NCBI GenBank assembly: GCA_944386475.1
Contig: CALXBH010000073.1
Location: 1 to 64,000, forward strand
From: an uncultured Clostridia bacterium
Lineage (GTDB): Bacteria > Bacillota > Clostridia > Oscillospirales > Ruminococcaceae
Reading direction: 5' to 3'
DNA: 64,000 nucleotides
A program made the translations under genes and the position numbers. Shown here piece after piece: positions 9,320-14,590 of the stretch (within the stretch, counting starts at the first letter, position 1; each line of letters starts with the position of its first letter). The notes below the pieces were generated by a model. The model saw only the letters and a program-made list of their open reading frames with translations, searched no databases and had not been told where the DNA came from.

Positions 9320-9433
9320 AGATAAAACCCTTCTCAAGTCAGATAATATGGGGGACGGCATGTCCGCCGTCATCCCGTCCAGACAGACCGTTTTTTATTA
9401 TAAGATGGAACCCGGTGGAAAATCAAGGGGATA

Positions 9434-9462
9434 TTGACGTTTTTACGAGAATACGGTATTAT
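9434..9462 (+). promoter_or_regulatory. Sigma-A promoter for rpe
   Basis: TTGACG (9434-9439), a 17-base spacer and TATTAT (9457-9462) lie 52 bases before the start codon. Confidence 0.8.
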
Positions 9463-9513
9463 AAAAATAGTTATGTCCGAATTTTGTTGTTTTATAAAGG
9501 AGGAACCAATCGG

Positions 9514-10164
9514 ATGATCGTTTCACCATCCCTGCTGGCCAGTGACTTTTCGGATCTTCGGGGGGAAGTGGCCCGGATGGAAAAGGCGGGTGCGGACTGG
9601 CTCCATATCGACGTGATGGACGGGCATTTTGTGCCCAACCTGACCTTGGGCGCGCCGGTGATCCGGTGCCTGCGGGGTAAAACGAGCCTTGTGTTCGACG
9701 TGCATCTGATGATCTCCGACCCTCTTCGGTATATCGACGATTTTGCTGATGCCGGGGCGGATATCATTACCTTCCATCTGGAAAGCGAATCCGACTGTAT
9801 AAAAACCATCCAAAAAATAAAAAGCCGCGGGCTTAAAGCCGGGCTTTCTATTAAACCAAAAACAGGGGAGGAAAAGCTGCGGCCTTTCCTCCCGCTGGTG
9901 GACATGGCGCTGATTATGACGGTGGAACCAGGTTTCGGCGGACAGTCGTTTATGGCGGACATGCTGCCAAAAGTTTCCGCTGTGCGGGATGACTGCCGTC
10001 AAATGGGAAAGAATATCCTTATCCAGGTGGACGGCGGCATTACGGATCAAACCGCGCCTTTGGCAGCAAAAGCGGGCGCGAACGTCCTGGTGGCGGGCTC
10101 CTATGTGTTCGGGGCCAGAGACGCCGCACAAGCGGTAAATGCCCTGAAAGCAGCCGGCCGCTAA
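9514..10164 (+). CDS. rpe: Ribulose-phosphate 3-epimerase
   Basis: A 216-residue TIM-barrel enzyme that interconverts ribulose 5-phosphate and xylulose 5-phosphate in the pentose phosphate pathway. The metal-site motif HIDVMDGHFVPN (near 30-41), DVHLM, MTVEPGFGGQ and the phosphate-binding QVDGGI are all intact, and length is normal for the family. AAAGGAGG lies nine bases before the ATG at 9514. It has its own promoter. Its stop codon interlocks with the stop of the convergent MecA-like gene, leaving no space for an intergenic terminator. Confidence 0.96.
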   Translation: MIVSPSLLASDFSDLRGEVARMEKAGADWLHIDVMDGHFVPNLTLGAPVIRCLRGKTSLVFDVHLMISDPLRYIDDFADAGADIITFHLESESDCIKTIQKIKSRGLKAGLSIKPKTGEEKLRPFLPLVDMALIMTVEPGFGGQSFMADMLPKVSAVRDDCRQMGKNILIQVDGGITDQTAPLAAKAGANVLVAGSYVFGARDAAQAVNALKAAGR

Positions 10165-10757
10165 CGGCAAAGGCGCTCTACAATGGTATCGATGGCGTTA
10201 TTTATAATGAGAGGTTTGGCGTGCTCCTTAATAAAGGCGGACTTGACGGCCCCTTTTCCCATCGCTTCCCCGTACTCGCTTACCAGGGCGGCGATTTTTC
10301 TGTCCAGCTTGAAATAGGAATAAACAAGGAGTATGTAGCTTTGCTCCATTAAATAAAGGGAACTTTTTAGTACCAGATGGCTGTACTGGGTAAACAGCTT
10401 GTCACAGGCGGTAATCAGGTCTTCCGGGTCGGAAAACCGAAAGATCATCGGCGTGTTGAAGCTTCCCCTATACCGTTTGGGCCGGGCGCTTCCCTGGCCT
10501 TGGGCGTCCAGTACGCTGATATACAGGATGCAGCCTCCCTCACGGTGGGGGAACGCCTCGATAAACAGTTTCCCACCGGTGAGGTCCACGTCGGTTTCCT
10601 GACGGACTTTGTGGAGCAGAGCCACAATGGCCCGCTTGGTGCTGGGATCTTTATAGTCCATTTGTTCATAGGTGATGGCCAGATCCTGCATATCGTCCAC
10701 CGACAGCTGGACTTTTACCGTCTGCCGGTCAACCGTCTCGATTTTCAAGTCAATCAA
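10161..10757 (-). CDS. MecA-like adaptor protein
   Basis: A 198-residue acidic protein. The N-terminal half (LSVDDMQDLAITYEQMDYKD, then an amphipathic helix ending before a CILYISVLD strand) resembles the N-terminal and linker part of MecA adaptors, which deliver substrates to the ClpC unfoldase. The C-terminal half has the alternating pattern RFSDPEDLITACDKLF and LYLMEQSYILLVYSYF seen in the MecA C-terminal domain. Identity to characterised MecA appears low, so the partner and targets are uncertain. The gene ends inside the stop of rpe and starts 120 bases from the divergent Rnf-like operon. Confidence 0.6.
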   Translation of the reverse strand: MIDLKIETVDRQTVKVQLSVDDMQDLAITYEQMDYKDPSTKRAIVALLHKVRQETDVDLTGGKLFIEAFPHREGGCILYISVLDAQGQGSARPKRYRGSFNTPMIFRFSDPEDLITACDKLFTQYSHLVLKSSLYLMEQSYILLVYSYFKLDRKIAALVSEYGEAMGKGAVKSAFIKEHAKPLIINNAIDTIVERLCR

Positions 10758-10877: not shown

Positions 10878-11927
10878 GTGAATGCGTTGGGCGAAACCAT
10901 ACAAATAGGAAAATCCAGAAAGAAACAGCCGCTTGACGAGGCTTCCAAGATGCGGCGCAAAAAAAACGGCGACATTTTGTTCGCCTTAATTCCCGTTTTG
11001 CTGATGGCGGTTTATTACTTCGGCGTTCGGTCGCTTTTTCTGGCCGCATATGCCATTATATTCAGCGTGGCCAGCGATTATTTGTGCCTGCGGCTGACCG
11101 GGCAGAAAAAATGGCAGCGATACGACCTTTCTTCCCTGATTTCGCCGCTTATTTTAGTGTTGATCCTGCCGGCCAGCATCCCTTACTGGATCGCGATTGT
11201 CGGTGTATTAATCGCAAACCTGGTGGCAAAATATCCATTTGGAGGATATGGGAAAAATATTTTTAACCCTGCTGCGGTGGCCTTCGCCATTTTGGCCATT
11301 GGCTGGCCGGACAGGGTGTTTGCCTATCCCCAGCCCTTTGACAGCCTGGGGATTTCTTCCACTGTCCAGGCAAGCTTAGGCCAGGGAATCGCCTACCGGC
11401 TCCAGTTGGGCGGCGCGCCCTCCATCTCGGGGATGGACCGGCTGCTGGGGCATTTCGCCGGCCCTATGGGAGCGACCTGCATTCTGGTGCTGATCGCCTG
11501 CGGAATTTATCTGCTGGCCCGCCGGACGATCTCCTGGCAGATCGTTTTGGGGACCCTTGGCTCCTCAGCGCTGATTGCCTTTTTATTCCCCCGGATTTTG
11601 GTGGGACGGCTGGATTCCGTTTCCTTTGAGATGATTGCGGGCATTCTTTTGTTTGGCGCGGTCTTTATGGCTTCTGACCCGGTCACCTCTCCTAAAACCG
11701 GCTGGGGGAAGGCTTTGTACGGCGTTTTGCTGGGTACTTTGACCATGCTGTTCCGGTATTTTGGAAAAATGGAAATTACCTTTGCCTACGCGCTGTTGCT
11801 TTGCAACGCCGTGGCGCCCAAGTGCGACGAGTATATGGCAGTCGCCGTAAAAGGGGTGAAAGCGGGCTGCCGGGCGCTCCTTAAAAAAGCTGGAAGCGAA
11901 ACTTCGCCTCAGGAGGTGCAGCCATGA
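10878..11927 (+). CDS. RnfD/NqrB-like membrane protein lacking the flavinylation site
   Basis: A 349-residue protein with about nine or ten membrane segments. Family hallmarks are GKNIFNPAAVAFA (125-137), GAVFMASDPVTSP and NAVAPKCDEY. In RnfD/NqrB an SGAT(P) motif carries FMN covalently on threonine; the corresponding place reads GGAPS (178-182), so no threonine is available. It leads a four-gene set: the next gene overlaps by four bases (ATGA), then an RnfA-like gene follows, then a DUF4015 protein. RnfB, RnfC and RnfG, needed for ferredoxin:NAD oxidoreductase, are absent from the window. It may be a repurposed transporter or scaffold; that is inference. The upstream 120 bases hold two small hairpins and a divergent MecA-like gene. 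Confidence 0.8.
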   Translation: MNALGETIQIGKSRKKQPLDEASKMRRKKNGDILFALIPVLLMAVYYFGVRSLFLAAYAIIFSVASDYLCLRLTGQKKWQRYDLSSLISPLILVLILPASIPYWIAIVGVLIANLVAKYPFGGYGKNIFNPAAVAFAILAIGWPDRVFAYPQPFDSLGISSTVQASLGQGIAYRLQLGGAPSISGMDRLLGHFAGPMGATCILVLIACGIYLLARRTISWQIVLGTLGSSALIAFLFPRILVGRLDSVSFEMIAGILLFGAVFMASDPVTSPKTGWGKALYGVLLGTLTMLFRYFGKMEITFAYALLLCNAVAPKCDEYMAVAVKGVKAGCRALLKKAGSETSPQEVQP

Positions 11928-12604
11928 TCCGCCGGTTTTATCAGAAACACAAACACACGTTAACCCTGTTTGACGGTTTTTTCCTCAATAACACCGTGTT
12001 GGAGCGGGGGCTGGTGATTGCGCCGATTATTGTGGCGGGCAACACCATGAAAAACGCCGTGATGCTGAGTATTGCGTTTGTCATCATCACCTTTTTTACA
12101 GTGCTTGTCTCTTCGTTTATCCCTAAAAAGCTCCCCTATACCATACGGGCCATTATGCACACGGTGCTAGCGGCGATTTTGTTTATCCCCGTGTCCTATT
12201 TTTTGCAGGGGTACTTTCCGGAAGCGGTATACAAAGCGGGGATTTTTCTTCCTCTTTTGGTGACAAATTCCCTTATTGTTTCTAAAGGTGAGTCCCGCTT
12301 CTTCAAAAAGACCAGAGGAGTCATGGCCGTCGATCTATTGAGCCATGTGCTGGGCTTTAGCCTGGTGGCCTGTATTGTAGGCGCCATCCGGGAGATCTTG
12401 GGAAGCGGCAGTTTTTGGGAGATTCCCCTAGGCCTGGGCGAGACCGCCCCCATGCTTATGTTCCCCTTTGCGGGCTTTATCCTGCTGGGCTTTTTAGCGG
12501 CGGCGCTGCAAAAATTCCGGCTTTATGTAACCCGTGAGCCCAAGGCTCTAGCGAAAGAAGAAACTGCCCCAGACGGTTCCGAACAGCCGGAATCCGCAAA
12601 CTGA
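11924..12604 (+). CDS. RnfE-like membrane protein lacking both cluster cysteines
   Basis: A 226-residue, six-helix protein of the RnfA/RnfE/NqrD/NqrE fold. The C-terminal half is clearly RnfE-like: FLPLLVTNSLIV (109-119), then SLVACIVGAIREILGSG and FPFAGFILLGFLAA. RnfE has two cysteines, in LGLCP and TNC motifs, that help bind a [2Fe-2S] cluster in the membrane. Here they read VIAP (Ala33) and TNS (Ser116). The N-terminal NNTVLERG matches NNPVLVQ of the family. The start overlaps the stop of the RnfD-like gene by four bases, implying coupled translation. Fold assignment is good; an electron-transfer role looks unlikely. Confidence 0.78.
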   Translation: MIRRFYQKHKHTLTLFDGFFLNNTVLERGLVIAPIIVAGNTMKNAVMLSIAFVIITFFTVLVSSFIPKKLPYTIRAIMHTVLAAILFIPVSYFLQGYFPEAVYKAGIFLPLLVTNSLIVSKGESRFFKKTRGVMAVDLLSHVLGFSLVACIVGAIREILGSGSFWEIPLGLGETAPMLMFPFAGFILLGFLAAALQKFRLYVTREPKALAKEETAPDGSEQPESAN

Positions 12605-12658
12605 CAGAAAGGACGCATTTTTTCACTGATCCGGTGATAAAATGGATGGTAAACCGTC

Positions 12659-13276
12659 ATGAGTGAACTGCTAAACAGTTTTGCCTCCTTTTTGGGGGAT
12701 TATGTCACCTATGCCCTGATCGCCATGTTTTTGGAAAACACCATTTTAACCAGGGCGCTGGGAACCTCCACCTCCCTGCTGATTATCCGCAAGCGGTTTT
12801 CATTGGGGCTGTTCTCGCTGATTTTAACGGTAATCACCACCCTTTCGGCGGTGATCGTCTATCTGATTAATCCTCTGCTCAACAGTTTAAGCTTCCGGTA
12901 TTTTATCACGCCGTTAGTCTTTGTACTGATTATTTCGGTGGTTTATGTAGCCGTGCTGCTGTTGACAAACTTCTGCTTTAAAAAGCTGAAAGAAAAAATC
13001 CTGCCCATGGTGCATCTGTCGGCCTTTAACTGTGCCGTTTTGGGAGCGCTTTTGCTGGGAAGCCAGGGAAATATGAACTTCCCGTCGTTTTTAGGCTTTG
13101 GCCTGGGAACCGGCTTGGGGTTTGCTCTGGCGACATTTTTGTTAAGCATTGCCTACGAACGGCTGTACAGCGACCGGGTGCCCCGGGCGTTTCGGGGATT
13201 CCCCGCAATGCTTTTATACATTGGAATTTTATCCCTCTCCTTTTACGGCCTGATCGGCCATGAGATTTCATTTTAA
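12659..13276 (+). CDS. RnfA-like membrane protein with one of two cluster cysteines
   Basis: A 205-residue, six-helix protein. The N-terminal FLENTILTRALGTSTS aligns with the RnfA segment ending LGICPFLG, so the first cluster cysteine is replaced by Ser37. The second motif, normally TTNCAVLG, is kept as AFNCAVLGALL (Cys125). The C-terminal YERLYSDRVPRAFRGFPAMLLYIGILSLSFYGL closely follows RnfA. With the RnfE-like partner this leaves one of the four cysteines expected for the shared [2Fe-2S] cluster. It is 54 bases after the RnfE-like gene and 33 bases before the DUF4015 gene, apparently in one transcript. Confidence 0.78.
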   Translation: MSELLNSFASFLGDYVTYALIAMFLENTILTRALGTSTSLLIIRKRFSLGLFSLILTVITTLSAVIVYLINPLLNSLSFRYFITPLVFVLIISVVYVAVLLLTNFCFKKLKEKILPMVHLSAFNCAVLGALLLGSQGNMNFPSFLGFGLGTGLGFALATFLLSIAYERLYSDRVPRAFRGFPAMLLYIGILSLSFYGLIGHEISF

Positions 13277-13309: not shown

Positions 13310-14521
13310 ATGGCCCGTAAACGGAAAATCCACGGTGGAAAAATTAAAAGAAGCAAACCCAGGAACTTTCGCCGCCAGCGGCGCAGGAAACAAAACCGCG
13401 CCGTTAGGACGGTTTTATTTGTCATTGTGATTCTCGCCCTGTTAATAGGCGCTTACTGCGCCGCCGGGCCGCTGATGGACTGGATCTCCGGCCTTTCCGG
13501 CGGGGGAGGAGATACCTCCTCTGCGCCCGCCCAGTCGGACGTAGCTTCTTTGCCCGCGGAAGAGGGAACGTCTTCCCAGACATCCAGCGAACCCGCCGCC
13601 ACGGCGGCTGCCGGCCGGGTGAAAACCATGCCGTCCTCCACGCTGACGGACTTAAACGCGGTGTCCTCCTTTGCCGCCACGGCGAAAGAGGAAGGGTATA
13701 CGGCGGTAGCTGTGGAACTGAAAAACAACGAGGGCAAGCTCCTTTACGGCTCAGCTTTAGAGCGGGCCAAACGGTACGGCGCGGTTCAAAATGGGGATGT
13801 GGTACTGGCCGACGTGGCCGCCGCCATTAAAGAGCAGGGCCTTACCCCGGTGGCACAGCTTCACATGTTCCGGGACAGCACGGCCGCCAACCGGCAGAAT
13901 AACAACACCTTCATGATCCGGGGACAAAACGTCACCTGGTGGGATAACTCCCCCTCAAACGGCGGAAAGCCCTGGCTCAACCCCTATGAACAGGAAGCGG
14001 TGGACTACCTGCTGGAGATTATCGGCGAGGTAATGGACGGCGGCTTTACCCAGGTGGTGTTGGAGTCTGTACAGTATCCGGACGTGCGCAACACCTCCCA
14101 GATTGATTTCCCCGAAGGCGCCAACGAGCAGACCCATCAGCGGCAGCTGTCCGCGTTTATCGCCCAGGCCCAGACCCTTGCCGGGGAGAAAAACGGTTCG
14201 GTGACCGTCGCCTATGACATGCGGTCGGTTTTAGGCCAAAAGGACAACATTTACTTTGGCAATCCGTTAAATTTAAACGCCTCTTCCATTTCACCGGTGA
14301 TCACCATCTCCCAGTTTACGAACCCCTTGGAGTATGGAGGGCAGACGGTGGAAAATCCCCAGGAGAATCCGGCTCAGGCGGTAACGGCCTTGATCGAGGG
14401 GATCCGCCAGGCGGCTCCTGACGCCCAGATCATCCCCATTCTGGCTTCTGACGCCAAAACCGACGCGGTTCAGGACGCTTTGGAACAGGCGGGGATCACC
14501 CAGGTGATTGAAGAACCGTAA
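13310..14521 (+). CDS. DUF4015 putative glycoside hydrolase, membrane-anchored
   Basis: A 403-residue protein. A strongly basic, Lys/Arg-rich N terminus (1-30) leads into one membrane anchor (about 32-52), followed by a Ser/Gly/Ala-rich linker (58-100) and an extracellular TIM-barrel-like domain. The domain begins KTMPSSTLTDL and has GYTAVAVELKNNEGKLLYGS, QGLTPVAQLHMFRD and DGGFTQVVLESVQYP, matching the DUF4015 family of putative glycoside hydrolases. No substrate is established. It is the last gene of the Rnf-like operon, before a strong terminator, so it may work with those membrane proteins at the cell surface; this is inferred from position only. Confidence 0.8.
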   Translation: MARKRKIHGGKIKRSKPRNFRRQRRRKQNRAVRTVLFVIVILALLIGAYCAAGPLMDWISGLSGGGGDTSSAPAQSDVASLPAEEGTSSQTSSEPAATAAAGRVKTMPSSTLTDLNAVSSFAATAKEEGYTAVAVELKNNEGKLLYGSALERAKRYGAVQNGDVVLADVAAAIKEQGLTPVAQLHMFRDSTAANRQNNNTFMIRGQNVTWWDNSPSNGGKPWLNPYEQEAVDYLLEIIGEVMDGGFTQVVLESVQYPDVRNTSQIDFPEGANEQTHQRQLSAFIAQAQTLAGEKNGSVTVAYDMRSVLGQKDNIYFGNPLNLNASSISPVITISQFTNPLEYGGQTVENPQENPAQAVTALIEGIRQAAPDAQIIPILASDAKTDAVQDALEQAGITQVIEEP

Positions 14522-14547
14522 TTCCCTGAAAACAGCTATAAAATCAA

Positions 14548-14590
14548 AACAACCGGTATAATCTAATTGGATTATACCGGTTGTTTTTTA
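14548..14590 (+). terminator. Rho-independent terminator of the Rnf-like operon
   Basis: A perfect 16-base stem (14548-14563 with 14570-14585), six-base loop and T run (14584-14589). Confidence 0.92.

Follow-up and report, generated by a model that had tools for sequence, protein, structure and literature searches.

A conserved RnfD-RnfE-RnfA paralogue of gut Clostridia without the covalent-flavin and iron-sulfur cluster sites of the Rnf complex

INTRODUCTION

Why should a bacterium keep the membrane subunits of a respiratory ion pump when residues that hold its redox cofactors are gone? The question is raised by three adjacent genes in the window, the 64,000-nucleotide stretch of DNA from an uncultured Clostridia bacterium (Ruminococcaceae) analysed here. 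The initial annotation described them as an RnfD-RnfE-RnfA trio stripped of its redox centres and conserved for a new function. Structures of the complete Rnf complex, RnfCDGEAB, are available from C. tetanomorphum (7zc6), A. vinelandii (8ahx), and A. woodii (9eri). Its E/A pair alternates between inward-open and outward-open states and is gated by a [2Fe-2S] cluster (PMC12174285, PMC11889175). Coupling in Rnf and NQR is debated, the ion path being placed either in RnfD/NqrB or in RnfA-RnfE (PMC12174285, PMC11889175).

RESULTS

The RnfD-like gene (D; 10878..11927, plus strand) starts with GTG and encodes 349 amino acids that match PF03116 with 247.8 bits. It is followed on the same strand by an RnfE-like gene (E; 11924..12604; 226 amino acids) and an RnfA-like gene (A; 12659..13276; 205 amino acids), whose products match PF02508 with 101 and 82.8 bits, respectively. 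All three reading frames are intact and run where the initial annotation had placed them. A fourth plus-strand gene (13310..14521) encodes a DUF4015 protein of 403 amino acids (PF13200, 83 bits, E 2.7e-23), and a terminator-like hairpin with 19 pairs and a T tail, which is a consensus match only, lies at 14546..14587 (plus strand). D and E overlap by 4 bases, gaps of 54 and 33 bases separate E from A and A from the DUF4015 gene, and the hairpin closes the series. Thus, the four genes most likely form one transcription unit. No riboswitch or other known RNA was found near it.

The window D, E, and A proteins score far under the NCBIfam cut-offs for every Rnf/Nqr subunit family, E reaching 75.7 against the cut-off of 213.4 for rnfE and A 72.4 against 229.3 for rnfA. 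In PDB profile matches, the E family profile found RnfE (7zc6_E, 5e-33) and the A family profile RnfA (9eri_A, 1.1e-36). Structure models cover D and the DUF4015 protein as single proteins; the AlphaFold2 model of D (pLDDT 91) had RnfD (7zc6_D) as its top PDB match, with TM scores of 0.73/0.83, and urea transporters matched it weakly (TM 0.35). Pfam, PDB profiles, and the D model agree with the initial assignment of three adjacent genes to the RnfD, RnfE, and RnfA folds. PF03116 is the sole Pfam domain of D, without a PF00175 fusion, and the locus has no FMN_bind gene. The absence of RnfB, RnfC, and RnfG, also noted initially, was confirmed, as no rnfB, rnfC, or rnfG was found near the trio.

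An ordinary rnf locus is present on another contig of the host genome (C10), with rnfC (truncated at the end of the contig), an rnfD-FMN_bind fusion, rnfE, rnfA, and rnfB; the window trio is therefore a second copy. Its E and A are 27% and 30% identical to the host's ordinary copies. In two genera, that of the window and a related one, the ordinary RnfD carries the RnfG-like FMN_bind domain at its C-terminus as a D-G fusion of 496-502 amino acids; this rests on Pfam for the C10 gene (L053:9075-10565) and on length plus the missing rnfG for L110 and L109.

In the alignments, E-Ala33, E-Ser116, A-Ser37, and A-Cys125 occupy the columns of the four cysteines that hold the membrane [2Fe-2S] cluster. 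Two cysteines are thus replaced in E and one in A, where Cys125 is kept, exactly as first described. In the window D, QASLGQGIAYR stands opposite the flavinylation motif D-x-[VI]-T-[GST]-A-T-P-L, at Gly170, so that the covalent-FMN site is lost. The initial annotation had also called this site lost, but from a wrong pairing: GGAPS (D residues 178-182), which it set against SGATP, corresponds to a GG-x-LP stretch of ordinary RnfD downstream of the flavinylation site. The Glu of the GxxGE motif is replaced by Ala199. Two ligands of the non-covalent riboflavin, Asn130 and Asp267, are retained in D. Their counterparts in A. woodii RnfD, N123 and D249, hydrogen-bond riboflavin (PMC11889175) and are spaced by 126 residues, as in the host's own ordinary RnfD. 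The description "stripped of redox centres" is accordingly right for the covalent FMN and the [2Fe-2S] cluster and overstated for D. The window E retains R67 and E115, in A. woodii a Na+-linked ion pair tied to Na+ entry, where an E115A change was tolerated (PMC11889175). Both residues of A that interact with the last cluster of RnfB, R154 and E158, are replaced.

A sample of 61 related genomes, together with a reading of the gene surroundings, gave 36 reduced loci (one of them from a separate search) and 53 ordinary rnf loci. The first cluster cysteine of RnfE was found in 0/35 reduced and 53/53 ordinary loci, the second in 0/36 and 52/53, and the first cluster cysteine of RnfA in 0/34 and 52/53, respectively. 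Thr occupied the FMN-Thr column in none of 35 reduced loci versus 50 of 52 ordinary ones, and the buried Glu of the D GxxGE motif was kept in 1/35 versus 51/52. No more than about half of the reduced loci, the window's included, retain the second RnfA cysteine. On these counts, chance is excluded as the source of the pattern, because the residues separate the 36 reduced from the 53 ordinary loci. Neither RnfB nor RnfG occurs in any of the 36 reduced loci. An RnfC-like gene lies upstream of D in 14 of them and is missing from 22, so that the proposed conserved order without RnfB, RnfC, and RnfG held for the order, RnfB, and RnfG and failed for RnfC. Besides these genes, the reduced loci share neighbours: upstream of the window trio (9415-10757) lie rpe, encoding ribulose-phosphate epimerase, and a MecA-like gene on the opposite strand; among about 31 reduced loci inspected, 29 have an rpe homologue upstream of the trio and about half the MecA-like cluster.

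Cofactor residues at shifted positions were considered and rejected, since neither motif searches nor cysteine counts revealed other sites for them. Half of the E proteins from reduced loci without RnfC (11/22) have at most one cysteine, and shifted ligands therefore cannot rebuild a four-cysteine cluster. An extra set of loci had Thr at the FMN column in 4 of 19 cases and the D-x-x-[ST]-[GA]-A-T context in none of 19. Some relatives carry a Thr one position later (SPAYT type), which the window lacks; in the tiny genomes described below, ApbE was not detected.

Other functional residues are kept unevenly. The riboflavin Asn is present in 14/14 reduced D proteins with RnfC, 10/21 without RnfC, and 19/19 of the extra set, and the Asp in 13/14, 14/21, and 18/19, respectively. 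E proteins of the loci without RnfC retain R67 in 18/21 and E115 in 19/22 cases, those of the RnfC-bearing loci in 9/14 and 4/14, and about half of the extra loci do not retain the pair. RnfA R154 and E158 are replaced in the reduced loci without RnfC.

In a family profile search, reduced D proteins were found at E <= 1e-85, a threshold set beyond the best ordinary D of the class search (1.3e-80), in at least 139 of the family's 198 genomes and in 97 of 126 genera. Strong reduced-D matches in a class-wide sample all came from the same order. Matches in Syntrophomonadaceae were set aside as a different thing, namely solo RnfD genes with a flavinylation motif: the MAGs (L035-L051) have an RnfD-like gene and no rnfE, rnfA, rnfG, or rnfB in the stretch examined, and the member examined in full has an ATPL-type motif (L036:7998-8855).

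In an unrooted tree of concatenated D, E, and A, a single branch parts the reduced from the ordinary loci (SH-aLRT 99), and an unrooted tree built from D only, outgroups from other orders included, gave the same split (97/85). With the residue counts, the trees reveal the separate clade with shared losses that the initial annotation had predicted, and none of the 53 ordinary loci places a full rnf operon inside it. Independent loss in each genus was rejected because the tree needs only one change between ordinary and reduced. For the window genome and a congener, dN/dS was 0.138, 0.123, and 0.100 for the reduced D, E, and A, compared with values of 0.153, 0.142, and 0.042 in the ordinary copies, at a dS near 1 to 1.5 that is partly saturated. 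Judged by these ratios, D, E, and A are under purifying selection, which, together with their retention in highly reduced genomes, agrees with the initial view of a conserved new function and not decay. Distances among the reduced complexes track those among the ordinary Rnf of the same 26 genomes (Mantel rho 0.67; 0/2000 permutations as high), which indicates that the reduced locus has been inherited vertically. The reduced proteins evolve faster than the ordinary ones of the same genomes (mean difference 0.68 vs 0.41).

The reduced loci have the order C-D-E-A(-DUF4015) in 14 cases and D-E-A(-DUF4015) in the others, including the window. All 14 RnfC-like proteins have both CxxCxxxC ([4Fe-4S]) motifs, and SLBB is kept. 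The GMGGAxFP loop of the NADH/FMN domain is lost in all 14, and Nuo51/RnfC_N matches are weak or missing. Five ordinary rnfCDGEAB operons from the same taxonomic order have a DUF4015 match shortly downstream of rnfB (L074, L086, L088, L106, and, weakly, L099). In the reduced loci, RnfC is remodelled or lost, and the RnfC-bearing ones represent an intermediate state. The simplest order of events is that B, G, and the redox sites were lost first and C afterwards, more than once; the polarity from ordinary to reduced is argued from the distribution and the relic RnfC, as the trees are unrooted.

An ordinary rnf locus accompanies the reduced one in 29 of 34 genomes. In G002 and G023, E and A are only of the reduced type, and ordinary E and A were not found. 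Four genomes of 0.7-0.9 Mb (88-97% complete) have no ordinary Rnf; D, E, and A without the cofactor sites persist in G395, G481, and G468, each gene at a place of its own, and G377, in a search of E and A, keeps both in reduced form. None of the four has the cluster-site cysteines in E and A. A profile search found no FMN_bind gene in G002, G023, or the tiny genomes, and the four tiny drafts agree in having no detected FMN_bind, ApbE, lumazine synthase, or flavokinase (riboflavin kinase). The riboflavin Asn and Asp persist in D of the three tiny genomes that keep D; as these have no detected flavokinase, ApbE, or FMN_bind, the two residues may be structural. Because the subunits are kept even where their genes are scattered, they presumably work together and not by flavin-based electron transfer. 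This argues for cooperation of D, E, and A in non-flavin work in the tiny genomes, with gaps in draft genomes as a caveat.

The scattered genes of the tiny genomes (L179, L181, L199-L202, L206-L209) have neighbours of their own. A is adjoined by a conserved lipoprotein of 478-487 amino acids without a Pfam match over cut-off, and D by a conserved 384-amino-acid protein without a family. The latter was considered as a degenerate RnfC upstream of D and rejected, as it is not RnfC-like. In L199, a polysaccharide-biosynthesis epimerase adjoins E.

The DUF4015 gene directly follows A in 29 of the 33 reduced loci whose contig does not end first, and by its position it is the predicted fourth gene of the D-E-A unit. 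It is missing from four reduced loci on continuing contigs and is thus not an obligatory partner. The protein is predicted to have a basic N-terminus, one membrane helix, and an extracytoplasmic, TIM-barrel-like domain of glycosidase type. Its model (pLDDT 84.5) matches the folds of 4s1a, PgaB, and Cwp19 in the PDB, 4s1a also by profile. DUF4015 has been observed in fusion with a YkyA domain, which occurs in fusions with polysaccharide deacetylases as well (PMC12700454). The likeness to PF13200/4s1a and to PgaB/Cwp19-type glycan hydrolases thus lies in family match and fold; unlike those hydrolases, the DUF4015 proteins of reduced loci keep the conserved Asp of the FDYIRFP-type motif in only 7 of 29 cases. 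Catalysis is doubtful because this Asp is mostly lost, and the protein may bind glycans rather than cut them. At two reduced loci, an MBOAT gene and a DHHW/AlgX-type gene, a pair of the polysaccharide O-acetylation type, lie a few kb upstream of D (L057:1302-3896, L060:3661-6237), a hint of an envelope-glycan setting.

DISCUSSION

We favour, with moderate confidence, the reading that the window genes are a paralogue of the Rnf membrane core, conserved and passed on vertically, in which electron transfer across the membrane has been lost and which would now form a non-redox membrane complex. There is good support for the loss of redox chemistry, and the sequences make a redox function of D-E-A very unlikely; the new job would be that of a transporter or a scaffold. 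Counted against the reading is the loss of the buried GxxGE Glu in 34 of 35 reduced loci. The riboflavin Asn and Asp, which are mostly kept and not obviously needed in a flavin-free D, likewise speak against a D without flavin.

These two residues are the starting point for two other readings. D might bind riboflavin in a residual redox module and, with RnfC, exchange electrons with the two [4Fe-4S] clusters of the latter on the cytoplasmic side, as a sensor or short relay. Retention of Asn and Asp in most reduced D proteins and of both CxxCxxxC motifs in every RnfC-like protein fits such a module, and a redox role has been proposed for a D-like protein without covalent FMN in Nqr/Rnf-like systems (PMC11334425). 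We nevertheless consider it unlikely, as the locus has no FMN_bind partner, RnfC is lost in the window lineage, and three tiny genomes keep Asn and Asp without detected flavokinase, ApbE, or FMN_bind. The kept ligands would also suit a riboflavin transporter on the RnfD fold, which is related to the urea/ammonium family (PMC12174285). However, the subunits are kept where riboflavin kinase and lumazine synthase were not detected, most genomes tested have ECF substrate components, the D model resembles urea transporters only weakly, and no riboswitch was found in the region. Such a transporter is quite improbable.

The frequent co-occurrence with an ordinary rnf locus and the identical folds could mean that D, E, and A are accessory, regulatory, or decoy subunits of the cell's ordinary Rnf. 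G002 and G023, with E and A of the reduced type only, the four small genomes without ordinary Rnf, and the replacement of RnfB-contacting residues render this improbable. A decaying rnf duplicate on its way to loss would explain the faster evolution of the reduced proteins. It is refuted as a general explanation, and we give it next to no chance, by dN/dS values of 0.10-0.14, by frames and gene order that are intact across tens of genera, and by the retention of the subunits in genomes of 0.7-0.9 Mb.

For the preferred non-redox complex, a working picture can be drawn from the Rnf mechanism. With the cluster, B, and G gone, electrons can no longer drive the E/A pair. The inverted pair would still rock between inward-open and outward-open states as in Rnf, in a cycle powered by an ion gradient or substrate binding in place of cluster reduction. 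D would be a structural or substrate-binding partner, and the complex may act on, or signal to, the cell envelope by way of the DUF4015 protein, which is membrane-anchored and resembles glycan hydrolases. A respiratory ion pump could thereby have become an envelope component, either an alternating-access transporter driven purely by ions or substrate or a mechanical device, uncoupled from electrons and kept throughout a large family of gut Clostridia, even in genomes of 0.7-0.9 Mb without ordinary Rnf or detected flavin-cofactor enzymes. We offer this proposal tentatively. Ion coupling in particular is weakly supported, because the RnfC-bearing class and about half of the extra loci do not keep the R67-E115 pair, and because the E115A change was tolerated in A. 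woodii.

With the Rnf complex, the reduced loci share homologous D, E, and A of the same fold and gene order, the D residues that hold riboflavin in A. woodii, R67-E115 of RnfE in the window's class, and, where an RnfC is present, its two [4Fe-4S] motifs. In contrast to Rnf, they have no RnfB, RnfG, covalent-FMN motif, or membrane [2Fe-2S] ligands, their RnfC relic is without the FMN/NADH loop, and they are linked to DUF4015. Nqr/Rnf-like flavinylation systems (PMC8238504, PMC11334425) are likewise partial derivatives with an NqrB/RnfD-type domain that has no covalent flavin site. In those systems, which are built for electron transfer, the membrane domain is fused to PF00175 and has a flavinylated extracytosolic partner and no E/A pair, whereas the reduced loci lack PF00175 and FMN_bind and keep E and A. 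Urea/ammonium channels are distant fold relatives of RnfD/NqrB (PMC12174285), to which the D model is far closer. We found no description of a cofactor-free D-E-A core in the open-access literature searched.

A natural D-E-A core without the cluster and the covalent flavin, maintained by purifying selection in dozens of genera, provides a ready-made split of the mechanical from the redox part of Rnf. It also affects genome annotation: counting PF03116 and PF02508 genes as Rnf overcalls electron transport in gut Clostridia, and G002 and G023, for example, would be scored as Rnf carriers. Many gut Clostridia have a second, inherited Rnf membrane core without the electron-carrying parts, usually alongside a normal Rnf pump.
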